A stretch of DNA of 45,637 bases from a virus: positions 1-45,637 of the IMG/VR virus record IMGVR_UViG_3300005663_000080; one strand, 5' to 3'. The notes beneath the pieces were generated by a model. The model was not told the DNA's origin and did no database searches. It saw nothing but the letters and a program-made list of their open reading frames with translations. The position numbers were made by a program, and so were the translations under genes. Numbering within the stretch: the first letter of the stretch is position 1; every line of letters starts with the position of its first letter. Below, in pieces: positions 6,134 through 42,574 of the stretch.

Positions 6134-7154
6134 CGCAATGACGCTGCTATATCGAGCAAATTGGAAGTTGCAAGATTTGCAAACGTGCGACGGACGACTA
6201 ACGGGCATGGAATTTGGTTTCTTAAAGGGCGTCGAAGCATTGCGGCGACATTTCAAAGACGAAGTAATTTTATGTTGGGAAGGACGACGAAATTTCCGGT
6301 ACGAAATAGACTCTGAGTACAAAGCCAACCGGCGAAAGAAACGAACTGATAATACTAACAGACATTTGAATTTTGATAGGGTCAAAGAGTTTCAGGACTT
6401 TCTTTTAATGATCGCAGAAAGTGCGACGGAACCCGAACTAGAAGCAGACGATATAATCGCGTCACTCGCCGAGCGCTATTGCAAAACAGAGCCTGTCGTT
6501 ATATTCTCCAGCGATAAGGATTTGCACCAGCTACTTCGAGACGCGAGTCCTCGTCGTTTTGTTGCAGCAGCGGCAGACGGCTCTAAAATCACAGAGTGGG
6601 CGGACCCAGACGCAGACAATCACTTCGCGGTGTCACAACTAAAAGACTTCCAACACAGGGATAAACTTTGGACGCCACGGCGTGTTGAAGAGAAATATTA
6701 CGGCTTAACACCACAACAATTTAAGGTATTTCAAGCATGGGCGGGTGACACGATAGACAATATTCCGGGTTGTACAAGGGTTCGCAAAAGTCTTATCGCT
6801 GCTGCAATCCAAAAGGGGCTTAAACCCTACAGTATGTCTGATTTTATATTGTTTTCTGATACAGAGGCTCAAAGAATCGACGCGCATGTTGAACCAAGCG
6901 TGTCTGATGGTAGGCCAGACGGTGGGTTAGGTGATAGCATTAATAGCAGGCAAGTTTCAGTACCGGGTCTGAGCAGATACGAGAAAAACTTGCGACTCGT
7001 AACGCTCATTGTGAAACCGGATATTGAAGTCGTACAACGAAACTGGGATAAAGAAAAAATCAGTAAGTGGCTTTATAATATGCAATTTCGTTCGCTTAAA
7101 CTTTGCCGCGAATGCGGGCTGGGCGTAACGATTAATTCAGACGAAGAATTTTAA
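6120..7154 (+). CDS. 5'-3' exonuclease (FEN / PolA N-terminal type)
   Basis: 344 residues. Removes RNA primers and 5' flaps from DNA during replication. It starts MILVDAMTLLYR, with the first metal-binding Asp5, and has a basic helical-arch segment (EYKANRRKKR), EADDII (108-113) and SSDKDLHQLL (130-139), which supply further acidic metal ligands. GDTIDNIPG (near residue 210) is the helix-3-turn-helix DNA-binding element of the family. A non-conserved acidic insert lies around residues 260-285. The ATG at 6120 has AGGAGACGAACG directly upstream. Confidence 0.9.
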   Translation: MILVDAMTLLYRANWKLQDLQTCDGRLTGMEFGFLKGVEALRRHFKDEVILCWEGRRNFRYEIDSEYKANRRKKRTDNTNRHLNFDRVKEFQDFLLMIAESATEPELEADDIIASLAERYCKTEPVVIFSSDKDLHQLLRDASPRRFVAAAADGSKITEWADPDADNHFAVSQLKDFQHRDKLWTPRRVEEKYYGLTPQQFKVFQAWAGDTIDNIPGCTRVRKSLIAAAIQKGLKPYSMSDFILFSDTEAQRIDAHVEPSVSDGRPDGGLGDSINSRQVSVPGLSRYEKNLRLVTLIVKPDIEVVQRNWDKEKISKWLYNMQFRSLKLCRECGLGVTINSDEEF

Positions 7155-7166
7155 CCGAGGCATGAT

Positions 7167-7562
7167 ATGCTTGGTAAATTTAATTCAGATGGTGCAAACC
7201 AAAACGATGGCGCAAACCAAGACGGCAGCGCAAATAAACCAAAACCCACACGGCTTGAGATTATTGGCGTACTCAACGCTATTATTGACTTATGGTCTGA
7301 TGCACCAAAGATGCCAAAAACAAATGATTCGTGGCAAGCATTTCAGTCTGCAACACCACCCATAGTTTTAAGCGTACCAAGAGTGCCAAGAATACCAGAC
7401 AAATTAATTCTGCCGGAAGACAAACGACGCGGCGACGCAGTACTTGATGTACTTGACACACTGCGAACGTACGTGAAATATAGCTTGTTTGAACGCGACG
7501 CCCTTCGTCGCGAGGTAGCGTTCTTGAAACAAATGGTTAATGATTTAGGCGGTAAGATATGA
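7167..7562 (+). CDS. Hypothetical protein with DGANQ repeats
   Basis: 131 residues. Residues 5-22 are low complexity with repeated DGANQ units. The rest contains a helix (LEIIGVLNAIIDLW), a Pro-rich linker (VPRVPRIPDKLILP) and a C-terminal helix (LRREVAFLKQMVNDL). The previous gene ends 12 bp upstream and the next overlaps by four bases. No family recognised. Confidence 0.65.
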   Translation: MLGKFNSDGANQNDGANQDGSANKPKPTRLEIIGVLNAIIDLWSDAPKMPKTNDSWQAFQSATPPIVLSVPRVPRIPDKLILPEDKRRGDAVLDVLDTLRTYVKYSLFERDALRREVAFLKQMVNDLGGKI

Positions 7563-22725: not shown

Positions 22726-22751
22726 TGGAGTTGGTAGGAGTACAGCGGTCG

Positions 22752-25253
22752 ATGAAGCAAGAAAATATAAAACGCTTTGAGATGTTTATCTCGAAACTTC
22801 AAGGAGTGCAGAAGCAAAATGAATATCGGTGCATGTCCCTTTGTCCGTCGCACGGAGATGCGAATAATTCTCTGTGGACAACGCTCAATGAGAATGGTAA
22901 AATAGGAGTGGCATGTCACGGCGGTTGCAAAGTCATAGAAATAGTATCCGCAATGGGATTTCAAGGTCTAGGAGTTTTATACGGCGCGCCACAAATCGTT
23001 GCGGTGTATGACTTTATAACAGCAGAAGGTGAATTTTTATATCAAGAAGTCAAGTATGATAAAGATTCGTCGCTGAGTCGTTTCGCCGTCCGCAGGTTAA
23101 ACCCAAAGTACAGCAAAACGATAAAAAACGTTGATGGTGAGGGCGTAAGTACTAACGCTCACGTAGACAGCAAAGGTAAAAAAATTGATAAATGGATTTA
23201 TGGCTTGCCAAAAGACAACGCGGGTGGTGCAGGCGGCGCGGGTCAGCGAATATTGTTTAACTTACATGAAGTTATAGTATCAAAAAAAAGCGAGAATGAC
23301 GAAGGCGAAGAGCGCGGCGATTGTAATATTGTATTTATGAACGAGGGCGCTAAAGACGCGGAGACATTACGCAAACTTGGGCTAACGTCCACCGCGGCGC
23401 TAATTAATGACTGGGAAAAAACAGACACCTCGCCGCTCGACGGCAGGAATGTTGTTATTCTCGTTGACTATGACGAAGATAGCACGAATGGGATGAACGC
23501 AGGCGAAATAAAGGCTCTCAAGGCAGCGCATAATAGATATGGTAAGAGTAGTAGTGTTAAATTGCTTCGACTGCCCGGCCTAAAAGAAATTGGCAATCAT
23601 AGCGATGTTACTGACTGGCTGAACGCGGGCATTAATGGTACTGTTCCGGGGAACGCACGAGACAAGCTACTTGAACTCGCGTTGAGCGACGATCTGAAAG
23701 AATGGCAGCCATGTGAGTCGATACGCGAACGGATTGAAAATGGGAAGATGACTGGATTAATATTTGAGAAAGGGTTTCCCGGGCCAATTTGGGAGACTTG
23801 GTATGGTGTCTACCACTCGTTAACAAACGGACTGTTATTATCTTATGACAAAGATTGGTTAAAAGGTTGCATAAAGTCGTTGCTGTATAACGAAACAGAA
23901 CCCGATACACAATTAAAGACAATCCAAAGAATGCTGAAGTACTGTGGCGACGCTAAGTCTAAAGATTCAAACGCTGTTTTCAAAGGAACACCCCGGGACT
24001 TTGAAGAAATACTGCGCGCATGCCAAATAGAAGTTGGAATTGACGCGCACAAGTATGCTACGATGCCAATATTTAGAAGCTCATTTATGCCTGATCATGA
24101 GCGAGAATGGCGTTCAAGCGATATTGTGATAATGAAAAGCAGTAATTTCTATATACCCTCTAAACGTGCATATCCGAGAAACATGCAGTCGTGCATCGCC
24201 CGCCATGCGTTGCCATTTGATTATGACGCGGATGCGAAATGCCCTATGATTGAAGAGTCATTACGAACACAATGGAGCGACGACCAAGAGTCGATAGACT
24301 TGTTTTTGCAGTATATTTTTTATTGTATGATATCGGCACCGGGGAAATACAAGAGCATTCTTAGCATGATAGGCGCGCCAAATACGGGCAAGTCGAAATA
24401 TTTGCAATTAATTGTTGCGTTTATTGGTAATAAAAGTTGCGAAGCGATAAGCCTTAGTAAACTTGGGCTCCAATTTGAATTATTTAGAACAATATTCTCA
24501 AAGGTTTTGATTTGTGACGACGAAAATGTAACAAAAAAAGAAAATTTACTTAGTATACCCGCTGGTCAACCTATTCGAGTCGAACGCAAAGGCGGCGACA
24601 TCGAAACGCGCATAATTCCCGCACAAATTATCATTGCAGGAAACAAGCCTATACGAATGCACTCAAATTCTAGCGGACTATCTGAACGGCTTAAATTTCT
24701 CGTCTTTCGCCATGTGTATAAAAGGGGTGACGATATGGACGAAAATATAATGGATACATGGCGTCATGAATTGCCCGGCTTAATGAATTTAGTTTTAGGC
24801 GCGGGCGAGAAATTAGTTGCTGCACGGGGATTTGTCGAACCTAAATCGTCGATAGACGCGAGAGAGCAGTTTGAAAGTGGCGCGAATCCTGTCTTACGGT
24901 TTATTCGTGAGTACTTCGAGCAGAATGATATTGATTGCTTGGGAAATTTGGGAAGCTCCGAAGTGTGCGTCGTTGCGCCATGGGTCGTGACACTTGAGAA
25001 TATGAAGGTTTATTACGGACTGTATTGTGAAGAGTTTGAAGTGCGAAATAAACTAACTGTTCACCAATTCAATGAGGCAATGGAATCTGTTCCGGGCATT
25101 AGTAGGAAAAGAATCAACGTAAAGAAAACAGACGCTAAGACCAACCAAAAAGAGTGGAAACAAGTTCGATGTTGGATTGGTTTGAGAAGAAATGGAACTG
25201 ATGGAACTCTTGATGATCGCCGTGCGTCGAATGGTGTGGGGAATGATTTTTGA
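22752..25253 (+). CDS. Primase-helicase: CHC2 zinc finger, TOPRIM and D5-type SF3 helicase
   Basis: 833 residues. Makes primers and unwinds DNA at the phage fork. N-terminal zinc finger CPSH ... ACHGGC (Cys31, His34, Cys55, Cys59). TOPRIM domain with FMNEGAKDAE (Glu near 198) and VDYDED (near 239). A D5-type ATPase follows: Walker A GAPNTGKS (541-548), Walker B VLICDDEN, sensor AGNKPIRMHSNSSGLSERL. The C-terminal domain (VRFIREYFE-like start, ending QVRCWIGLR) resembles the winged helix of D5 proteins. Ten iterons lie directly upstream. The chosen ATG has TAGGAG 11 bp in front. Confidence 0.9.
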   Translation: MKQENIKRFEMFISKLQGVQKQNEYRCMSLCPSHGDANNSLWTTLNENGKIGVACHGGCKVIEIVSAMGFQGLGVLYGAPQIVAVYDFITAEGEFLYQEVKYDKDSSLSRFAVRRLNPKYSKTIKNVDGEGVSTNAHVDSKGKKIDKWIYGLPKDNAGGAGGAGQRILFNLHEVIVSKKSENDEGEERGDCNIVFMNEGAKDAETLRKLGLTSTAALINDWEKTDTSPLDGRNVVILVDYDEDSTNGMNAGEIKALKAAHNRYGKSSSVKLLRLPGLKEIGNHSDVTDWLNAGINGTVPGNARDKLLELALSDDLKEWQPCESIRERIENGKMTGLIFEKGFPGPIWETWYGVYHSLTNGLLLSYDKDWLKGCIKSLLYNETEPDTQLKTIQRMLKYCGDAKSKDSNAVFKGTPRDFEEILRACQIEVGIDAHKYATMPIFRSSFMPDHEREWRSSDIVIMKSSNFYIPSKRAYPRNMQSCIARHALPFDYDADAKCPMIEESLRTQWSDDQESIDLFLQYIFYCMISAPGKYKSILSMIGAPNTGKSKYLQLIVAFIGNKSCEAISLSKLGLQFELFRTIFSKVLICDDENVTKKENLLSIPAGQPIRVERKGGDIETRIIPAQIIIAGNKPIRMHSNSSGLSERLKFLVFRHVYKRGDDMDENIMDTWRHELPGLMNLVLGAGEKLVAARGFVEPKSSIDAREQFESGANPVLRFIREYFEQNDIDCLGNLGSSEVCVVAPWVVTLENMKVYYGLYCEEFEVRNKLTVHQFNEAMESVPGISRKRINVKKTDAKTNQKEWKQVRCWIGLRRNGTDGTLDDRRASNGVGNDF

Positions 25254-25269
25254 AATTGATTGGAATATA

Positions 25270-25647
25270 ATGGATAGAAAGAGAAAGAGAAAGAGAAAGA
25301 GAAAGAGAAAGAGAAAGAGAATAAGGTGGGACTTAAAACCTGCAAGCACAAAATCGTTTATTTACGACTTTGTAAATCGTAAAGTCAACATAAATGATAA
25401 TAAAGATGTAATTAAATGGGCAACGCCCGTAAAAGACATGCGAGACGCCTATAAAGCATATTTCAAAAATTTTAGCGTGTTGTGCCCAGATATTAGATTT
25501 GTAAGAATCGCAGGATTTAATGCATTACTAAAAGAGCTAGGAATTAAACAATCAACAAAATATCTTACGATTTTTAACAAAGAGTTCAAAAAATATTCAA
25601 CTAAACAATACCGTTGTTGGATTGGGTGCAGACTTGTGAAAACATAA
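25270..25647 (+). CDS. Stand-alone copy of the D5 helicase C-terminal domain with an Arg-Lys repeat
   Basis: 125 residues. After a start of Asp plus seven Arg-Lys pairs, the chain ASTKSFIYDFVNRKV ... WATPVKDMRDAYKAYFKNF ... FNALLKELGI ... KQYRCWIGCR follows the same layout as the last 130 residues of the primase-helicase, including the final RCWIG motif. It is therefore probably a duplicated C-terminal domain, perhaps with DNA-binding strengthened by the basic arm. ATG 25270 has a weak ribosome site; 25192, inside the helicase gene, is an alternative. Confidence 0.65.
   Translation: MDRKRKRKRKRKRKRKRIRWDLKPASTKSFIYDFVNRKVNINDNKDVIKWATPVKDMRDAYKAYFKNFSVLCPDIRFVRIAGFNALLKELGIKQSTKYLTIFNKEFKKYSTKQYRCWIGCRLVKT
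25276..25320 (+). repeat. AGAAAG hexanucleotide microsatellite
   Basis: Seven AGAAAG units plus AGA encode alternating Arg-Lys at the N-terminus of the gene at 25270. The unit is a multiple of three, so copy-number change alters the length of the basic arm without breaking the frame. Confidence 0.9.
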
Positions 25648-25690
25648 ATCTTATTCGCGAGACTTGTGAAAACATAAATCTTATTCGCGA
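25631..25690 (+). repeat. Two perfect copies of a 30-bp tandem repeat
   Basis: The unit starts GACTTGTGAAAACATAAATC and ends TTCGCGA. It spans the last codons and stop of the gene at 25270, so the duplication left the protein end unchanged. Confidence 0.95.
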
Positions 25691-25775
25691 GACGCTGTGT
25701 TTTGGGACGTTTTAGTAGCAGCCAAAATTGCCCTATTTGTAATGGAAACGTTCGTTGTGCGTTGTTCTACGTGGG

Positions 25776-26155
25776 TTTATGACAAAATATGCCGATTTAT
25801 GACAAGTAGTATGACGGCTTTATGACAGTTCTATAACAATAGTAATTTAACGTAACCAGTTATTAGTAATATACTTATGATTGCTGAGAATTGATTTATG
25901 ACATTTATGACAACTTCTGCTCAGCACTGCCCTTACGCGAGGGTATATTTGTGTGTCTGTATAGTTATAGAATGTTGCTGGTATTAGCCTTGTGCATGCG
26001 CGTGTAGCCGTAGATATATTGTCATAAATGTCATAAACGTCTAATAGTTGATCATAAGTGATTATAGTATATAGAGTTATATCAATTTTATTTTGTTCCA
26101 AAGCAGTCATAAGTTTGTCATACGTAGGTCATAAACCAAGTATTTTTGTCATAAA
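25776..26155. repeat. Mirror-symmetric array of TTTATGACA motifs, candidate origin or partition site
   Basis: The left arm has TTTATGACA at 25776, 25796, 25819 and a double copy at 25895-25912. The right arm has TGTCATAAA, its complement, as a double copy at 26020-26037, then AGTCATAAG (26105), TGTCATACG (26116), GGTCATAAA (26127) and TGTCATAAA (26147). Positions mirror about 25966 almost to the base, and both 143-bp arms still show similarity between motifs. The 107-bp centre has no copy. There is no gene here. It looks like an inverted duplication of an iteron cluster downstream of the primase-helicase. Confidence 0.85.
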
Positions 26156-26323
26156 TATATAATAGTTTGACGTAGTAACCACGCGAATAAGAATTACAGT
26201 TAAATACTGTTTTGAAATAAATTTTCAAACTTTGCAACGAAATCCGCGTGCGCGTGCGAAAATTCAAACATTGCTCGTAATAAGTTGTAAATAAACTGAA
26301 TTAAACAAAGCTGGAGACGAACA

Positions 26324-33612: not shown

Positions 33613-33684
33613 GCCAACGTAGCTCAGCGGTAGAGCTCTGGTTTTGTAAACCAGTGGTCATTGGTTCGAATCCAATTGTTGGCT
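33613..33684 (+). tRNA. tRNA-Thr (anticodon TGT)
   Basis: All arms form: acceptor GCCAACG/TGTTGGC, D stem GCTC/GAGC, anticodon stem CTGGT/ACCAG with loop TTTGTAA (anticodon TGT, reading ACA), and T stem ATTGG/CCAAT with loop TTCGAAT. It is 72 nt including the discriminator base; CCA is not encoded. The gene precedes the accessory island, where a tRNA may also serve as an integration landmark. Confidence 0.95.
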
Positions 33685-36181: not shown

Positions 36182-37756
36182 ATGCTAAACCCCAGCGAGA
36201 TAAAACTAAACAGAGTCCTGCACGGCAAGAATCAAGACGTTTTGAAAGATTTTCCGCCAAATTATTTTTCAAGCGTGATAACTGATCCACCTTATGAATT
36301 AGGATTCATGGGCCGCAAGTGGGACTCATCAGGCGTTGCGTATGACGTCACAATGTGGAAAGAAATTTTACGAGTCGCGAAGCCCGGCGCAACGTTGTTC
36401 TGCTTTGGTGGGACACGGACGTATCATCGCGTGGCCTGTGCAATTGAAGACGCGGGTTGGCAGTTGAAAGACTCACTGATGTGGATTTATGGGTCGGGAT
36501 TTCCGAAAAGCACAGACATCAGTAAGGCGTTGGACAAAGAAGCAGGCGCAAAACGAGAGAATATTGGCGAGAGTCGTGGTAGTTATGGGTATCAAAAGAG
36601 TGGCAATAGATGGGCTAAAGAAAGTTTTGAGACAGAACCAGCGACGGACATCGCAAAACAATGGAACGGATACGGAACAGCGCTCAAGCCGAGCTATGAG
36701 CCAATAATACTTGCACAAAAACCGTTGGAAAAGGGATTAACCTACGCCCAAAACGCCCGCAAGTGGGGCGTCGCCGGTTTGAACATCGACGCCGGTCGTA
36801 TCAAGTGTAGTGATAAAATATGTACCCCACAAAGCGATCCGAGTAATCGAATTGGTACTGTAGGCCAAGACCTAAGCATATCTAGGGCAGATAAAGATAA
36901 ATTTCAAAAGGCGCAGCGTGAGAGTATAGATCGAACAATGACTAAAGGACGTTGGCCCGCAAACGTAATCCTAAGTCACTCGCCGAACTGCGTTCATGTT
37001 GGCACGCAAGACTCAGGACAAGAGACGAACGCTGAAAGCGTCAGCACCGAAGATGCAATCGAAGGTGCATCATACACATACGCCTGCGTCCCCAATTGCC
37101 CGATCCGCATCATGGATACGCAGAGCGGTGTATCTAAATCTGTAGGAGGTAAGATAGGTGGTGGCGTAGCATTTGGTAAGGAGAAGCAAACAGGTATAAA
37201 GGGTAACCCAGGGTTTGGAGACACTGGAGGAGCATCAAGATTCTTTTACACAGCAAAAGCAAGTCGAAGCGAACGCGAGTCGGGCTTAAAAGATTTTGTA
37301 CCTTGTTCACAATGCAATGAGATAAGGACTAGCACGCACGCAGCAGACGCAGAAGCTGGCAGAGTAGCAGGAAATTGCATCCGAAATTCACACCCAACTG
37401 TAAAACCCGTATCAATTATGAAATATTTGTGCGAATTAATTCGTATGCCTGTGCAACTCGACGCTGACGGCAATCCTGATGCAAGCAAGCCACAAGTAAT
37501 CCTAGACCCATTCTGCGGAAGCGGATCAACACTACTCGCGGCGAACGAAGTTGGTCTCAAGTATATCGGCATAGACATGGGCATGGACAACGTAATAATC
37601 GCATCGTGTCGTAGCATCGACACGCCGCCCGACAAGTTGTCGGGCAAGTCAGTGTCACGAATCGAACGACAAGAATTACAAAACATAAATCCAGCAACGC
37701 TTGCGTCAAACGCACAACAGCTTTCGCATGACGATTTCAAAGACTTAATCGTTTGA
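36182..37756 (+). CDS. Beta-class DNA methyltransferase with shared C-terminal tail
   Basis: 524 residues. Transfers a methyl group from S-adenosylmethionine to an exocyclic amino group of adenine or cytosine in DNA. The catalytic DPPY (35-38) is N-terminal and the SAM motif DPFCGSGST (from about 442) is C-terminal, the order of the beta class. A large middle region (residues 150-400) probably holds target recognition. The chain ends NAQQLSHDDFKDLIV, shared with three other enzymes here. No restriction endonuclease is adjacent. Confidence 0.9.
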   Translation: MLNPSEIKLNRVLHGKNQDVLKDFPPNYFSSVITDPPYELGFMGRKWDSSGVAYDVTMWKEILRVAKPGATLFCFGGTRTYHRVACAIEDAGWQLKDSLMWIYGSGFPKSTDISKALDKEAGAKRENIGESRGSYGYQKSGNRWAKESFETEPATDIAKQWNGYGTALKPSYEPIILAQKPLEKGLTYAQNARKWGVAGLNIDAGRIKCSDKICTPQSDPSNRIGTVGQDLSISRADKDKFQKAQRESIDRTMTKGRWPANVILSHSPNCVHVGTQDSGQETNAESVSTEDAIEGASYTYACVPNCPIRIMDTQSGVSKSVGGKIGGGVAFGKEKQTGIKGNPGFGDTGGASRFFYTAKASRSERESGLKDFVPCSQCNEIRTSTHAADAEAGRVAGNCIRNSHPTVKPVSIMKYLCELIRMPVQLDADGNPDASKPQVILDPFCGSGSTLLAANEVGLKYIGIDMGMDNVIIASCRSIDTPPDKLSGKSVSRIERQELQNINPATLASNAQQLSHDDFKDLIV

Positions 37757-37794: not shown

Positions 37795-38604
37795 ATGAAA
37801 GCGTATGCTGTAAAACTAATTGATAAGAGAATAGCAAAAGAACTGATAGTAGAAAACCATTACTCGCATAAATGGTCTTCTTGCAGGTATGCATTAGGCT
37901 TATTTGAGATTAGTGGCGCACGGCAGAGTCAGCTAAATCTCGTAGGCGTTGCAGTATATGGGTTTCCAGTCGGCAGGCAAGTAGTTAAAAGCATCACAGC
38001 AGACATGGAAAATTGTGATGTATTAGAATTAACGCGGCTTTGGTTGCGAGATGAAGAACCAAAAAACTCAGAGAGTTATTTTCTTGGTCAGACATTTCAA
38101 TGGTTAAGAAATAATACAATTGTAAAAGTATTAATTAGTTATTCAGACCCAATGTATGGGCATACGGGAGTAATTTATCAAGCAACTAATTGGATGTATC
38201 AGGGCAATAACACCATGCTTATTAGGGGACATTTGCATGTGATACATGGTGAAACGATGCACCCTCGGAGTGTCGTCGCAAAGTACGGTACAGTAAGAAC
38301 ATCAGAATTAAAGAAGATTGATCCAGATTATTATCGTATTGAATTAAAGAAAAAGCACAGGTACCTATACGTATTGCGCAGAAAAGATAGAAAATCAATC
38401 TTATCTAAACTGAAACATGCTGTTGTAGAGTATCCTAAAGATAATTCAAATTGTAGTTGGGGGCGCAAGCAGGAAATTTGTATAATAATACCAGCAGTAC
38501 AAGATACAGCAATACAAGATACAATAGCAGTACAAGACATAGCAACGCTTGCATCAAACGCACAACAGCTTTCGCATGACGATTTCAAGGATTTGATTAT
38601 ATGA
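37795..38604 (+). CDS. Mom-like DNA modification protein with shared C-terminal tail
   Basis: 269 residues. NHYSHKWSSCRYALGLFE, LVGVAVYGFP, ELTRLWL (78-84) and ISYSDPMYGHTGVIYQATN (114-132) match the Mom family, GNAT-fold enzymes; Mu Mom converts DNA adenine to a carbamoylmethyl-type base that blocks restriction enzymes. After the fold comes a linker with repeated AVQDT/AIQDT units, then the tail NAQQLSHDDFKDLII. The tail DNA is nearly identical to that of the preceding methyltransferase. No com-like regulator is evident next to it. Confidence 0.82.
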   Translation: MKAYAVKLIDKRIAKELIVENHYSHKWSSCRYALGLFEISGARQSQLNLVGVAVYGFPVGRQVVKSITADMENCDVLELTRLWLRDEEPKNSESYFLGQTFQWLRNNTIVKVLISYSDPMYGHTGVIYQATNWMYQGNNTMLIRGHLHVIHGETMHPRSVVAKYGTVRTSELKKIDPDYYRIELKKKHRYLYVLRRKDRKSILSKLKHAVVEYPKDNSNCSWGRKQEICIIIPAVQDTAIQDTIAVQDIATLASNAQQLSHDDFKDLII

Positions 38605-38631: not shown

Positions 38632-39306
38632 ATGACTAGTCAAAATCCAAAACCTTGGACAAAAGAACACGAGCTTGCATACTGGAACGCTGAGTCGGAC
38701 GACTACTATCTCGCCAACATCCGCCAAAAGTACAAGTTATTCAACGTCGATCGAGTGACTAAAGATTGGTCTGGTATGCCAGATGATTGTATGACGCACT
38801 TGAAAACTGCAATTGACATCGGCGGTGGAGCATACGGCGGCGCGTTGTACTATTTTGGCAACAATTCCGATAAAGCAATGATCAAAGTGCAACACAGAAT
38901 TTTAATAGACGCACTAACGCCAGAGTTTCGAGCGATGGGCAAGGTACCAGCATACATTGATTCAATAACAGCAGACTTCGACAACATCCCATTGAAAGAC
39001 GAAGTAGCGGACCTGCTCTTTGCGTGGAACGTCTTCGATCACGCGACGAGCAATGAACATTTTATCTTAGGCATGTTCGAAGTAAAACGCTTGCTAAAAC
39101 CCGGCGGACTCTTCTTCGGTTCGTTTCCACTACGCGAGCAACCCAGCAACGGGCACCCAGTGACACTTACTGAGCAACTTGTGATGCGCCAATTGACTCG
39201 TCGTAAACACAAGCAGCATCATGAATTCAAAATACTAAAAACATTCAAAGTTCATGAGCCAACGTATCGCGATGAAACGTTGTTCGTCGTTGCTGAAAAG
39301 CATTAG
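38632..39306 (+). CDS. Class I SAM-dependent methyltransferase
   Basis: 224 residues. AIDIGGGAYGGALYYF is the SAM-binding glycine loop, LLFAWNVFDHATSNEHF the motif III-V region, and LKPGGLFFGSFPL the typical post-motif strand of Methyltransf_11-like enzymes. These usually methylate small molecules or sugars, not DNA. It lacks the shared tail. Its place between DNA-modifying enzymes and downstream of glycosyltransferases suggests it acts on a sugar or hypermodified base; this is inference. Confidence 0.8.
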   Translation: MTSQNPKPWTKEHELAYWNAESDDYYLANIRQKYKLFNVDRVTKDWSGMPDDCMTHLKTAIDIGGGAYGGALYYFGNNSDKAMIKVQHRILIDALTPEFRAMGKVPAYIDSITADFDNIPLKDEVADLLFAWNVFDHATSNEHFILGMFEVKRLLKPGGLFFGSFPLREQPSNGHPVTLTEQLVMRQLTRRKHKQHHEFKILKTFKVHEPTYRDETLFVVAEKH

Positions 39307-39367
39307 TTACTATCCAGCCGTCTTTCAAGTTGAAGAATTAAACATTGGTAAACGACAAATAATAACT

Positions 39368-40303
39368 ATGAAACCACTAAACGTGCTATCCCTATTCGAC
39401 GGAATTTCTTGTGCGCAAATAGCGTTAGAACGCGCAGGGTTTGAAGTCGCTAATTATTTTGCGTCAGAAATTGAAAAAGCGTCGATCAAGATAACGCAGC
39501 ACAATTATCCCAACACGATACAGCTTGGCAACGTTACAAAGATCAAAGCAATAGATTTACCACCAATAGATTTGCTCATCGGCGGGTCACCTTGCCAGGG
39601 ATTTTCGTCTGAAGGCAAAAAATTAAACTTTAATGATCCGAGAAGTAAACTCTTCTTTGAGTATGTTAGGTTGTTAAAAGAATGCAAGCCCAAATGGTTT
39701 CTTCTTGAAAACGTTGGTAGTATGGAACAGCAGCACCAAGATATTATTTCAGAGCAATTTGGTGTTCAGCCTGTTGCAATAAATTCACGGATGTTTTCAG
39801 CGCAGGTCAGAAATAGAGTATATTGGACAAATCTTGATCTTGAAAAGCCAGAAAAAGAAGCAAGTATAGTTATATTTGATATAGTTGAAAAAAATGGCAA
39901 GTTTAATGTTTTAGACGACTGCAAGTCAGTATCAAGAAAGTACATGCGGCGTAAAGTATATTTTGATTGGAGAATTCCTGGTGTCTTTGGTCAGTATAAA
40001 GAAGCTAATTATTTATACGCTAAACATAGCCCCATAACGTGTGCTGGGACTGCGTATATTTTATGCGCTAATGGCCAAATACGAAAAACCTCGCTGTTAG
40101 AACAAGAGCGATTGCAAACAGTTCCAGATGGGTACACCGATGTTGGTATTTGTAAAACGTCAAGAAGTAAGTCAATCGGCAATGGGTTTACTGTAGATGT
40201 TATAGTCTACATATTGAATCATATCATAACAAGCAGAAACGTTGAGCTTGTGTTACAAGCACAGCAAATCAAGTTAAGTGACTTCGAGGACTTAATAATA
40301 TGA
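39368..40303 (+). CDS. C5-cytosine DNA methyltransferase with shared C-terminal tail
   Basis: 311 residues. LSLFDGISCAQIALERAG (motif I), IGGSPCQGFSS with catalytic Cys76 (IV), LLENVGS (VI), AQVRNRVYW (VIII) and SKSIGNGFTVDVI (X) identify a 5-methylcytosine methyltransferase, perhaps with a short target domain. The end LQAQQIKLSDFEDLII is the third copy of the tail found on neighbouring enzymes. ATG 39368 is chosen because the motif I strand follows at once. Its stop overlaps the radical SAM start (ATGA). Confidence 0.9.
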   Translation: MKPLNVLSLFDGISCAQIALERAGFEVANYFASEIEKASIKITQHNYPNTIQLGNVTKIKAIDLPPIDLLIGGSPCQGFSSEGKKLNFNDPRSKLFFEYVRLLKECKPKWFLLENVGSMEQQHQDIISEQFGVQPVAINSRMFSAQVRNRVYWTNLDLEKPEKEASIVIFDIVEKNGKFNVLDDCKSVSRKYMRRKVYFDWRIPGVFGQYKEANYLYAKHSPITCAGTAYILCANGQIRKTSLLEQERLQTVPDGYTDVGICKTSRSKSIGNGFTVDVIVYILNHIITSRNVELVLQAQQIKLSDFEDLII

Positions 40304-41727
40304 GTCAAAAACCAAAAACAAGTCCCCGAGACCTGAAAAACAAGCCAAAAGTTCTACTAATCTACCCAAATCAGGTAAGAGAGTCGTTCGTAGAACTTTA
40401 TCAAAAGCACCGTTTCCCGAACATTGGCCCGCGATCAAATCCGATGATAAATTTAGGGATGCTTTACATTGTCGCGGCAATTCGAGACATCTGTGATTGT
40501 CAGTATATCGACAACAACACCGAGAAACTCTCAACGCACGACTTAACACAATACATCTTAAAACAAAAGCCGGACATCGTTGGGTTTGGCGGTACGCTTA
40601 CCGAGTGGCCACAGGCATCGCAAGTTGCCGCGTCGCTCAAAGAACAAGCACCAGACATCACAACATGCTATGGTGGACCCAACGCGAGCGCAAACCCAAC
40701 GAAACACGTCAAGTATTTCGACTTTGTGTTTCGTGGCTGGGCAGAACAATCGTTTCGTGAGTTTGTTTTGCGAATGTCTAAGTCGCCTAATGCTTTTTCA
40801 ATCGAAGGTATACCAGGCCTTTGCTGGCGCGATCAAACGACTGAAGACCCAATCGGTGGCAACGAAGGTTGCATAGTACCGCCAGCACTAAACATAAATC
40901 TCGACGACGTTAAATACCCGGCTCGCGATGTAATTGACATCGAGAATTACAAGCGAGTGCAGTTTCCAACACACGCAACTCAATGCTGTGATGGCAAAGG
41001 CGTATGCCAATCACCAGTAGACGTCGTTGTAGCGTCGCGAGGTTGCCCACACGCTTGCTCGTTCTGTTCAAGCAAGTCTATCTGGCAACAGCGGCATAAA
41101 ACACGCCCAGCGGCGTTTGTGGCGGACGAAATCCGCATGATGCAGCGTTTGTATAGCACTAAGACGATTCATTTCAGGGGCGACAACACAACGGCGAACG
41201 CAACGTATCTTGAATCGCTCTGCAAAGAACTTAAGACGCTCCACAATGAGACGGGATTAACCTGGATTTGCCAGTCGAGAATAAATGTTCTCAGCAGGCC
41301 GACGATACGTATGATGAAGAAAGCCGGTTGTCGCGTGATTTGTGCAGGCTTTGAATCAGCGAACGACGAGACGCTTCAAGCTATCGACAAAGGTTTCTTG
41401 TTCAAAGATGTTGTACACGCAATCGAGAATCTCGAACGCGAAGAAATGTTTTATTCAGGTGGATTTATTGTGGGCGCACCGAACGAAGGCGAGAAAGAAA
41501 TTGAGCGAACGCTCTTATTCACACGCAACGTCTCGCGGCTACCGCATTCGTTTATACCGCGAGGAGCAGGGCGGCTAGTAGGCTGGCCCGTCTCAGAAAT
41601 GTATAATGAAATGCTCGCGAATCCAGAACTCATTGCATTTAATTGGCAATGCGGCGAGCAAATAATTTCGAATACTCGCAAACTTTCAGCAGCACAAGTT
41701 GAGTCATGTATCGCCCGTCATTGGTGA
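40300..41727 (+). CDS. Cobalamin-type radical SAM enzyme
   Basis: 475 residues. An N-terminal B12-binding-like domain (VLLIYPNQ, PMINLGMLYIVAAIRD, DIVGFGGTLTEW, CYGGPNAS) precedes the radical SAM core with SRGCPHACSFCSS (Cys249, 253, 256). The order is that of BchE-like class B methylases and related enzymes. The DxHxxG cobalamin ligand motif is not obvious, so base-off or no B12 binding must be considered. Family members alkylate unreactive carbons. It is translationally coupled to the cytosine methyltransferase, which makes a DNA-base or glycan substrate worth testing. Confidence 0.85.
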   Translation: MSQKPKTSPRDLKNKPKVLLIYPNQVRESFVELYQKHRFPNIGPRSNPMINLGMLYIVAAIRDICDCQYIDNNTEKLSTHDLTQYILKQKPDIVGFGGTLTEWPQASQVAASLKEQAPDITTCYGGPNASANPTKHVKYFDFVFRGWAEQSFREFVLRMSKSPNAFSIEGIPGLCWRDQTTEDPIGGNEGCIVPPALNINLDDVKYPARDVIDIENYKRVQFPTHATQCCDGKGVCQSPVDVVVASRGCPHACSFCSSKSIWQQRHKTRPAAFVADEIRMMQRLYSTKTIHFRGDNTTANATYLESLCKELKTLHNETGLTWICQSRINVLSRPTIRMMKKAGCRVICAGFESANDETLQAIDKGFLFKDVVHAIENLEREEMFYSGGFIVGAPNEGEKEIERTLLFTRNVSRLPHSFIPRGAGRLVGWPVSEMYNEMLANPELIAFNWQCGEQIISNTRKLSAAQVESCIARHW

Positions 41728-41746
41728 AATATTAAACGCAAATGCA

Positions 41747-42574
41747 ATGCTACCAACAAACAAAATAATTTGTGGCAATAACGTCGATGTTCTCGCAACG
41801 TTTCCTGATGGTTGTATTGACTTAACAGTCACGTCGCCGCCTTACGATAATCTCAGAACGTACAAAGGGTTTAACTTTGACTTCGAGGGTGTTGCACAGC
41901 AGCTATATCGTGTAACGAAAACGGGTGGCGTTGTGGTGTGGGTGATCGGCGACGCAACGATAAACGGATCAGAAACATGTACGTCTTTTAAGCAAGCTCT
42001 TCAGTTTGTAGGATTAGGGTTCAATCTTCATGATACGATGATCTACCAGAAATTTGGTTGCCAATTCCCCGAGGTTAATAGATATTATCAGCAGTTTGAG
42101 TATATGTTCGTGCTTTCTAAGGGCAAGCCAAGAACAACTAACTTAATAAGAAAAGAAAATAAGTTGGCAGGTAAACGGTTTAACAGCGCGGGCAATCGCC
42201 AAGCTAATGGTGTTATTAATCCTATGTCGTTTCATAATACCGGGCGAGAACCTGTAATAAAAGAATTTGGAGTTATGTGGAATGTATGGCGAATTTCTGC
42301 CCAGCGTCAAGCAGGGCACCCCGCACCGTTTCCTGAAAAACTAGCACACGACCACATAATAAGCTGGAGCAACGAAGGCGACATTGTGTTAGACCCATTT
42401 AGTGGATCGGGCACAACAGCCAAGATGGCAAAAGAAACAAAGAGAAAGTTTATTGGTATCGACTGTTCAGAAGAATACTGCGAAATAGCTCGCAAGCGTT
42501 TGAGTTATGACACGGACATCGCAGTACAAGCTGCGCAATTATCACCCGACGACTTCAACGACATAATTATTTAG
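41747..42574 (+). CDS. Second beta-class DNA methyltransferase with shared C-terminal tail
   Basis: 275 residues from ATG 41747 (TTG 41699 also open). IICGNNVDVLATFPDG leads to TSPPYDNLRTY (SPPY 30-33) and the SAM motif DPFSGSGTTAKMAKETKRKF (from 216). The SPPY form is typical of N4-cytosine methyltransferases, while N6-adenine remains possible. The chain ends VQAAQLSPDDFNDIII, the fourth copy of the shared tail. The gene follows the radical SAM enzyme at once. Confidence 0.9.
   Translation: MLPTNKIICGNNVDVLATFPDGCIDLTVTSPPYDNLRTYKGFNFDFEGVAQQLYRVTKTGGVVVWVIGDATINGSETCTSFKQALQFVGLGFNLHDTMIYQKFGCQFPEVNRYYQQFEYMFVLSKGKPRTTNLIRKENKLAGKRFNSAGNRQANGVINPMSFHNTGREPVIKEFGVMWNVWRISAQRQAGHPAPFPEKLAHDHIISWSNEGDIVLDPFSGSGTTAKMAKETKRKFIGIDCSEEYCEIARKRLSYDTDIAVQAAQLSPDDFNDIII

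Follow-up and report, generated by a model that had tools for sequence, protein, structure and literature searches.

A mirror-symmetric, two-tier iteron array located 3' of an SF3 primase-helicase gene is a probable bidirectional replication origin in a clade of phages

The replication origins of SaPI satellites are found immediately downstream of the helicase gene, and their recognition is via the C-terminal domain of the helicase (PMC7581432). The repeats in these origins are found in opposite orientations and direct two helicases that are placed head-to-head, and the SF3 helicase T-antigen likewise loads as two opposed hexamers (PMC9894130). PICI origins always include two iteron sets around an AT-rich region, a plan that was stated to be shared by no other bacterial replicon (PMC6092414). 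A 302-bp region of phage Sfi21 was described as an independent replication origin, and Sfi21-type origins present in many copies act as phage-inhibiting sequences (PMC6356513).

The window analysed here, an IMG/VR virus record of 45,637 bases, has linear ends and is probably a fragment, as are all of the contigs compared with it. Like the SaPI and PICI origins, it includes an array 3' of an SF3 primase-helicase gene, though with a small ORF between them, and the array consists of two iteron sets in opposite orientation that are separated by an easily melted region. Unlike these satellites, the window has terL and portal (DUF4055) genes of its own on the 45.6-kb contig. A further difference is that arrays in the window clade have 12-16 sites arranged in two tiers (an 11-bp outer cluster and a 9-bp inner doublet) within a fixed frame, and that five different words are used among close kin. 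Based on position and layout, the array is very likely a bidirectional replication origin at which two SF3 primase-helicase hexamers would load head-to-head. The features of the locus are collected in Table 1.

Table 1. Features of the window and iteron sites of the related contig L023. Roles given are proposals.
Feature	Position or spacing	Strand	Basis
Mirror site pairs, window	25776/26147, 25796/26127, 25808/26116, 25819/26105, 25830/26094, 25874/26050, 25895/26029, 25904/26020	left/right	<=3-mismatch scan
Left arm, strict iterons TTTATGACA	25776, 25796, 25819, 25895, 25904 (arm 25776..25912)	+	site scan
Left arm, degenerate iterons	25808, 25830, 25874	+	site scan
Left arm, spacing	outer cluster pitch ~11 bp; 76 bp to inner doublet; doublet pitch 9 bp	+	site scan
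Right arm, mirror copies TGTCATAAA	26020, 26029, 26147 (arm 26020..26155)	-	site scan
Right arm, one-mismatch copy	26127	-	site scan
Right arm, degenerate iterons	26050, 26094, 26105, 26116	-	site scan
Central 107 bp separating the inner doublets (dyad near 25966); putative site of first melting	25913..26019		30-nt stability
Primase-helicase, TOPRIM-like primase part and SF3 helicase (DUF5906); proposed initiator and helicase	22752..25253	+	profiles
C-terminal domain of primase-helicase, residues ~708-816; proposed iteron-binding domain	24864..25190	+	predicted 2 helices and beta-hairpin wing
Stand-alone ORF, 3' part a paralogue of the primase-helicase C-terminal domain	25192..25647	+	profile E=1.1e-6 at 25357-25635
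Non-coding gap housing the array, small ORF to next conserved gene start (ATG 26324 = L023 8699)	25648..26323		synteny with L023
30-bp tandem repeat AGACTTGTGAAAACATAAATCTTATTCGCG, two copies, on the upstream side of the array	25630..25689	+	repeat search
Core of the 30-bp repeat in inverted form, CGCGAATAAGAATTA, right flank	26182..26196	-	repeat search
L023 array TAATACAA, forward sites	7481, 7492, 7503, 7514, 7590, 7599	+	syntenic gap
L023 array TAATACAA, reverse sites	7704, 7713, 7767, 7778, 7789, 7800	-	syntenic gap

Eight exact copies of TTTATGACA were found in the contig, all within positions 25776-26155, five on the + strand in the left arm and three on the - strand in the right arm. 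When up to 3 mismatches were allowed, 8 sites were found in each arm, and the inner six of the resulting mirror pairs are in exact register, while the outer two are 1 bp off. The mirror-symmetric 380-bp array proposed in a sequence-only reading of this DNA is thus confirmed, with all eight pairs within 1 bp. The pairing of the weaker copies listed in that reading also holds, except that a site placed at 25807 fits best at 25808, and the inner doubled copies, described as exact 18-bp complements, lie in a perfect inverted repeat that extends to 19 bp (25895-25913 and 26019-26037). The alignment of one arm with the other scored 149, as compared with a mean of 87 (sd 7.1, maximum 119) for 1000 shuffles, and in a mirror scan of the whole contig the array topped the list at 151, with the runner-up at 104. 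The suggestion that the arms align beyond the motifs was not borne out. Site columns are 85-100% alike between the arms, whereas identity in the spacers is 35% and near random (~30% expected), and the apparent extension is accounted for by two further degenerate site pairs. The array is non-coding and downstream of the primase-helicase gene, as had been stated, but the small ORF stands between the two.

As judged by 30-nt stability, the dyad belongs to the easiest-melting 1.1% of the contig (percentile 98.9). A nucleotide-skew check for an origin, which the same reading had recommended, was carried out and is uninformative, with no sign change of GC skew at the array and all genes on one strand. 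A single strand of the array forms a much more stable fold than shuffled sequences do (z=-5.3); however, a structure-based function was not accepted on this ground, since any long imperfect palindrome would fold in this way. An exact 18-mer search of viral contigs returned 8 matches, and the one beside a primase gene in contig L007 was set aside as a chance match because it falls inside a coding region. Only weak, short matches were obtained when the array region was compared with phages using blastn.

Four related contigs with an array were identified. L023, found by a search of viral contigs with the helicase domain alone (the whole primase retrieved nothing), encodes a primase 74-78% identical to that of the window. 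L033 and L038, found via a terminase alignment, encode primases that are 44-46% identical to it, and L011, found by its terminase, begins at the array and hence lacks the primase gene. No TerL relatives were detected among the genome contigs, and no stretch of an alignment of distant primases was usable as a search query. The L011 array is built from the word CATTCCCA, with all six site pairs summing to exactly 377, and those of L033 and L038 from TTAGGTAAA and TTATTAC, respectively. Hence, the five arrays use five words (TTTATGACA, TAATACAA, CATTCCCA, TTAGGTAAA and TTATTAC), and counts of each word in each array fill the diagonal only. A lone GTTATGACG, near the window's iteron, occurs at 7539-7547 of L023, within an array of another word, and is possibly a relic or due to chance.

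Each of the four contigs with this primase gene (35-46 kb) has its strongest mirror feature directly 3' of the gene. No such array was found in G002, G008, G009 and G010, terminase relatives that lack the primase, and none comparable in L012/L031, L032, L034, L035 and L039, for which no primase was found in the records searched. In a random-placement test of the strict sites, for which the iteron words were picked after inspection of the arrays, the window and L011 were clear, L023 was moderate, and L033 and L038 were weak or not convincing. The stability percentile of the dyad is 100 in L023 and L038 and 98.6 in L033, but only 87.5 in L011, and the dyad region of the window is less AT-rich than those of L023 or L038. 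Absence of conservation of the arms in close relatives had been named as an observation that would count against a functional array; the architecture was found to be conserved in four relatives, though the word is not.

The common plan, seen in all five arrays, comprises an outer cluster with a pitch of ~11 bp, an inner doublet with a pitch of 8-9 bp and a centre of ~100 bp. Outer clusters are spaced at ~11 or 22 bp. The spacing between the last outer site and the inner doublet, on the left and right, respectively, is 76 and 76 in the window, 76 and 54 in L023, 75 and 75 in L011, 73 and 73 in L033, and 84 and 75 in L038, and the two outlying values depart from the others by close to whole helical turns (54 by -22 and 84 by +9). 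The doublet pitch is 8 in L011 and 9 in the other four, and the start-to-start distance of the inner sites across the centre is 116 in the window, 105 in L023, 102 in L011, 93 in L033 and 112 in L038. In L011, L033 and L038, one reverse-oriented site lies 23-25 bp inside the outer cluster. What is new is this strict two-tier frame with five words in one clade, together with a free-standing copy of the proposed binding domain.

The ORF of the window primase-helicase opens at a TTG at 22731, and its homologues begin at the position of the ATG at 22752. The match to the DUF5906 SF3-like helicase family (31.5 bits) is above the Pfam gathering score of 27.6, and the protein also matches several phage primase families. 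The cut-off of the P4-family primase model TIGR01613 (108.7 bits) is not reached by the primases of the window (87.4), L023 (65.9), L033 (104.2) or L038 (100.3), and in a Pfam search Pox_D5 (PF03288) was not detected in these four but was found in those of Sfi21 and P4. In hhalign comparisons over the helicase part, E was 2.3e-8 between the window primase and P4 alpha and 3e-12 between it and the Sfi21 primase. The window primase is regarded as a distant relative of the P4 family and is not filed as a member. The L023 primase has a weak match to a Papillomavirus helicase model (E=5.7e-4). When the family profile was compared with PDB sequences, the sole match was 7ola/7om0, a 797-residue 'DNA primase' in 12 chains, which we take to be a staphylococcal island primase-helicase.

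Divergence between the primases is concentrated near the C-terminus. The last ~100 amino acids before the tail are 46% identical between the window and L023 proteins, as compared with 81-88% elsewhere, and for L038 and L033 the C-terminal ~100 amino acids are 45% identical, as compared with 67-78% elsewhere. This divergence tracks the change of word among the relatives. In the predicted second helix of the domain, residues that appear to be buried are kept and others are changed. An AlphaFold model of the domain (pLDDT 82-90) includes two helices followed by a beta-hairpin, and is winged-helix-like with a helix-helix-hairpin order. Foldseek searches of the PDB gave no significant match for this model, and nothing significant for a model of the small ORF (best 8zjr, an RFX5 complex, E=0.08). 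When the C-terminal domain alone was aligned using hhalign, the match to P4 alpha was not convincing and that to the C-terminus of the Sfi21 primase was weak. We infer from the sequence comparisons, and by analogy, that the C-terminal domain would read the iteron words, an assignment made more likely by the role reported for the C-terminal domains of SaPI Rep and Cch2 (PMC7581432).

The arrangement suggests how initiation might proceed. Sites at ~9, 11, 21 and 44 bp would have their binding faces turned to the same side of the helix, and the mirror arms, with their sites on one helical face, would thereby place two SF3 hexamers head-to-head across the 107-bp centre. Given double-hexamer loading by SF3 helicases and the SaPI precedent (PMC9894130), the likeliest order is that the winged-helix-like C-terminal domains of the primase-helicase would fill the 9-bp iterons in both arms, that two hexamers would assemble on the inner doublets and melt the easily opened centre, and that, once the primase has primed, two diverging forks would leave. 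Binding of the iterons by the domain, loading of two hexamers and the start of replication at the array are accordingly inferred steps of one scheme. We give about equal weight for and against a further proposal, that the frame is mechanically fixed and the words exchangeable, such that a dozen or more iterons would be replaced along with the recognition face of the initiator C-terminal domain while the pitch and the tier distances stay. If this is true, the clade would fall into groups of compatible origins, divided by their words.

An annotated counterpart in a phage is found in the record of Streptococcus thermophilus phage Sfi21, where a 302-bp non-coding region 3' of the primase gene is annotated as 'origin of replication'. 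It occupies the same place as the window array, 3' of a homologous primase gene (E=9e-15), and includes mirrored inner doublets, TTAGTTAC-TTAGTTAC and GTAACTAA-GTAACTAA, around an AT-rich centre; its mirror score of 128 is the local maximum, with the next at 99. However, the centre is shorter (~57 bp), the word is another one, there is no clear 11-bp outer cluster, and the two primases share only ~25% identity. In P4, the primase-helicase is homologous over the helicase part, and crr is located immediately 3' of the alpha gene. Type-1 repeats are found there in both orientations, in part at a 9-bp pitch. P4 differs in that two separate regions (ori and crr) are needed and in that crr consists of two 120-bp direct repeats, as compared with the single dyad in the window. 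SV40 T-antigen and papillomavirus E1 are likewise SF3 helicases, and their opposed hexamers on inverted sites offer a possible analogy, but in these the N-terminal domain binds the origin, and the host and gene context are unrelated.

Among 20 distant phages and satellites that were not sampled at random, the top local mirror feature fell in the gap 3' of the primase gene for 9 of the 12 with a gap of >200 bp, and for none of the 8 without one. In Salinibacter phage M8CR30-2, the 667-bp gap that follows the primase gene has no comparable array. In Manatee Spring phage ctPCi537 (MW202577; L015), inverted TGACGGATA iterons are found at 7023-7420, right after an SF3 helicase gene, and give the highest mirror score (142) of the 13-kb stretch examined.

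The small ORF overlaps the 3' end of the primase-helicase gene in another frame, and includes a GAAAGA-type microsatellite (25275-25320) that encodes a KRKRKR run. It is a possible regulator or competitor, and in the window phage this free-standing copy of the C-terminal domain may possibly tune or block initiation. A comparable 30-bp tandem array of ~4 copies is found in L023 at 7212-7326, in the same place as that of the window, and the window segment 26165-26233, which includes the inverted repeat core, is 77% identical to the L023 flank. In L023, four repeats of 22 bp are found in addition at 7360-7469. The tandem repeats, the flank copy and these 22-bp repeats may possibly belong to a second origin element.

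The paralogy of the small ORF, which ends beside the array, bears on a different reading, in which the iterons would be operators for the stand-alone domain, or for another regulator of the downstream operon, in transcriptional or copy-number control. Iteron origins often serve as control sites too. However, no counterpart of the ORF was seen in L023, L033 or L038, where the arrays persist, and the neighbouring genes are co-directional, leaving a divergent promoter switch without an obvious target, and this reading is considered unlikely. An attP, with inverted arm-type sites for a tyrosine integrase flanking a central core as in P4, would be of similar size with similar inverted arm sites, and the arm repeats of the P4 attP are ~12 bp. 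This is very unlikely, as no phage integrase domain was found in the window or in eight relatives (all fragments) using a search that was positive in 14 of 14 control genomes. In addition, the position of the array 3' of the primase gene is conserved with no adjoining integrase gene, and the arrays vanish where the primase is absent.

Some plasmid centromeres have inverted iteron arrays, and a partition site, bound by ParB or a similar adaptor, had been among the options raised by the sequence-only reading. This was not supported, with no ParB_N domain found in the window or in the three kin contigs with the primase gene when the ParB family was searched and the array linked to the primase-helicase instead, and we regard it as highly improbable. 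The packaging-related site raised alongside it was not supported either, as relatives that bear terL but lack this primase have no array. The shape also resembles inverted terminal repeats, as would be expected if the region had recently been duplicated in inverted form, or were a miniature transposable element, and had no function of its own. However, the sites and spacings of the window array have been kept and the rest has drifted to near-random spacers, so that the array is not a recent inverted duplication, and the same frame with unrelated words recurs at the syntenic place in the relatives; this explanation has hardly any likelihood. Support for the remaining option of that reading, a bidirectional origin with two inverted arms that bind the initiator, comes from synteny, from the persistence of the layout in four relatives, from the divergence of the primase C-terminal domain, and from the plan shared with Sfi21 and with SaPI and PICI.

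An origin of this kind would mean that the plan of the SaPI and PICI satellites is carried over to phage genomes, contrary to the published statement (PMC6092414). The five natural word and domain versions in one frame, four with the matching protein, would form a set for decoding how an SF3 C-terminal domain reads DNA, and would also serve to work out the placement of the two hexamers. The mirror score could be used as a simple origin finder for uncultured phages.

Elsewhere in the window, four ORFs (36182-37756, 37795-38604, 39254-40303 and 41699-42574) have similar C-terminal tails, for example LASNAQQLSHDDFKDLIV, LVLQAQQIKLSDFEDLII and VQAAQLSPDDFNDIII, and three of the four look like DNA methyltransferases. 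A tRNA-Thr (tgt) gene is located at 33613-33684.
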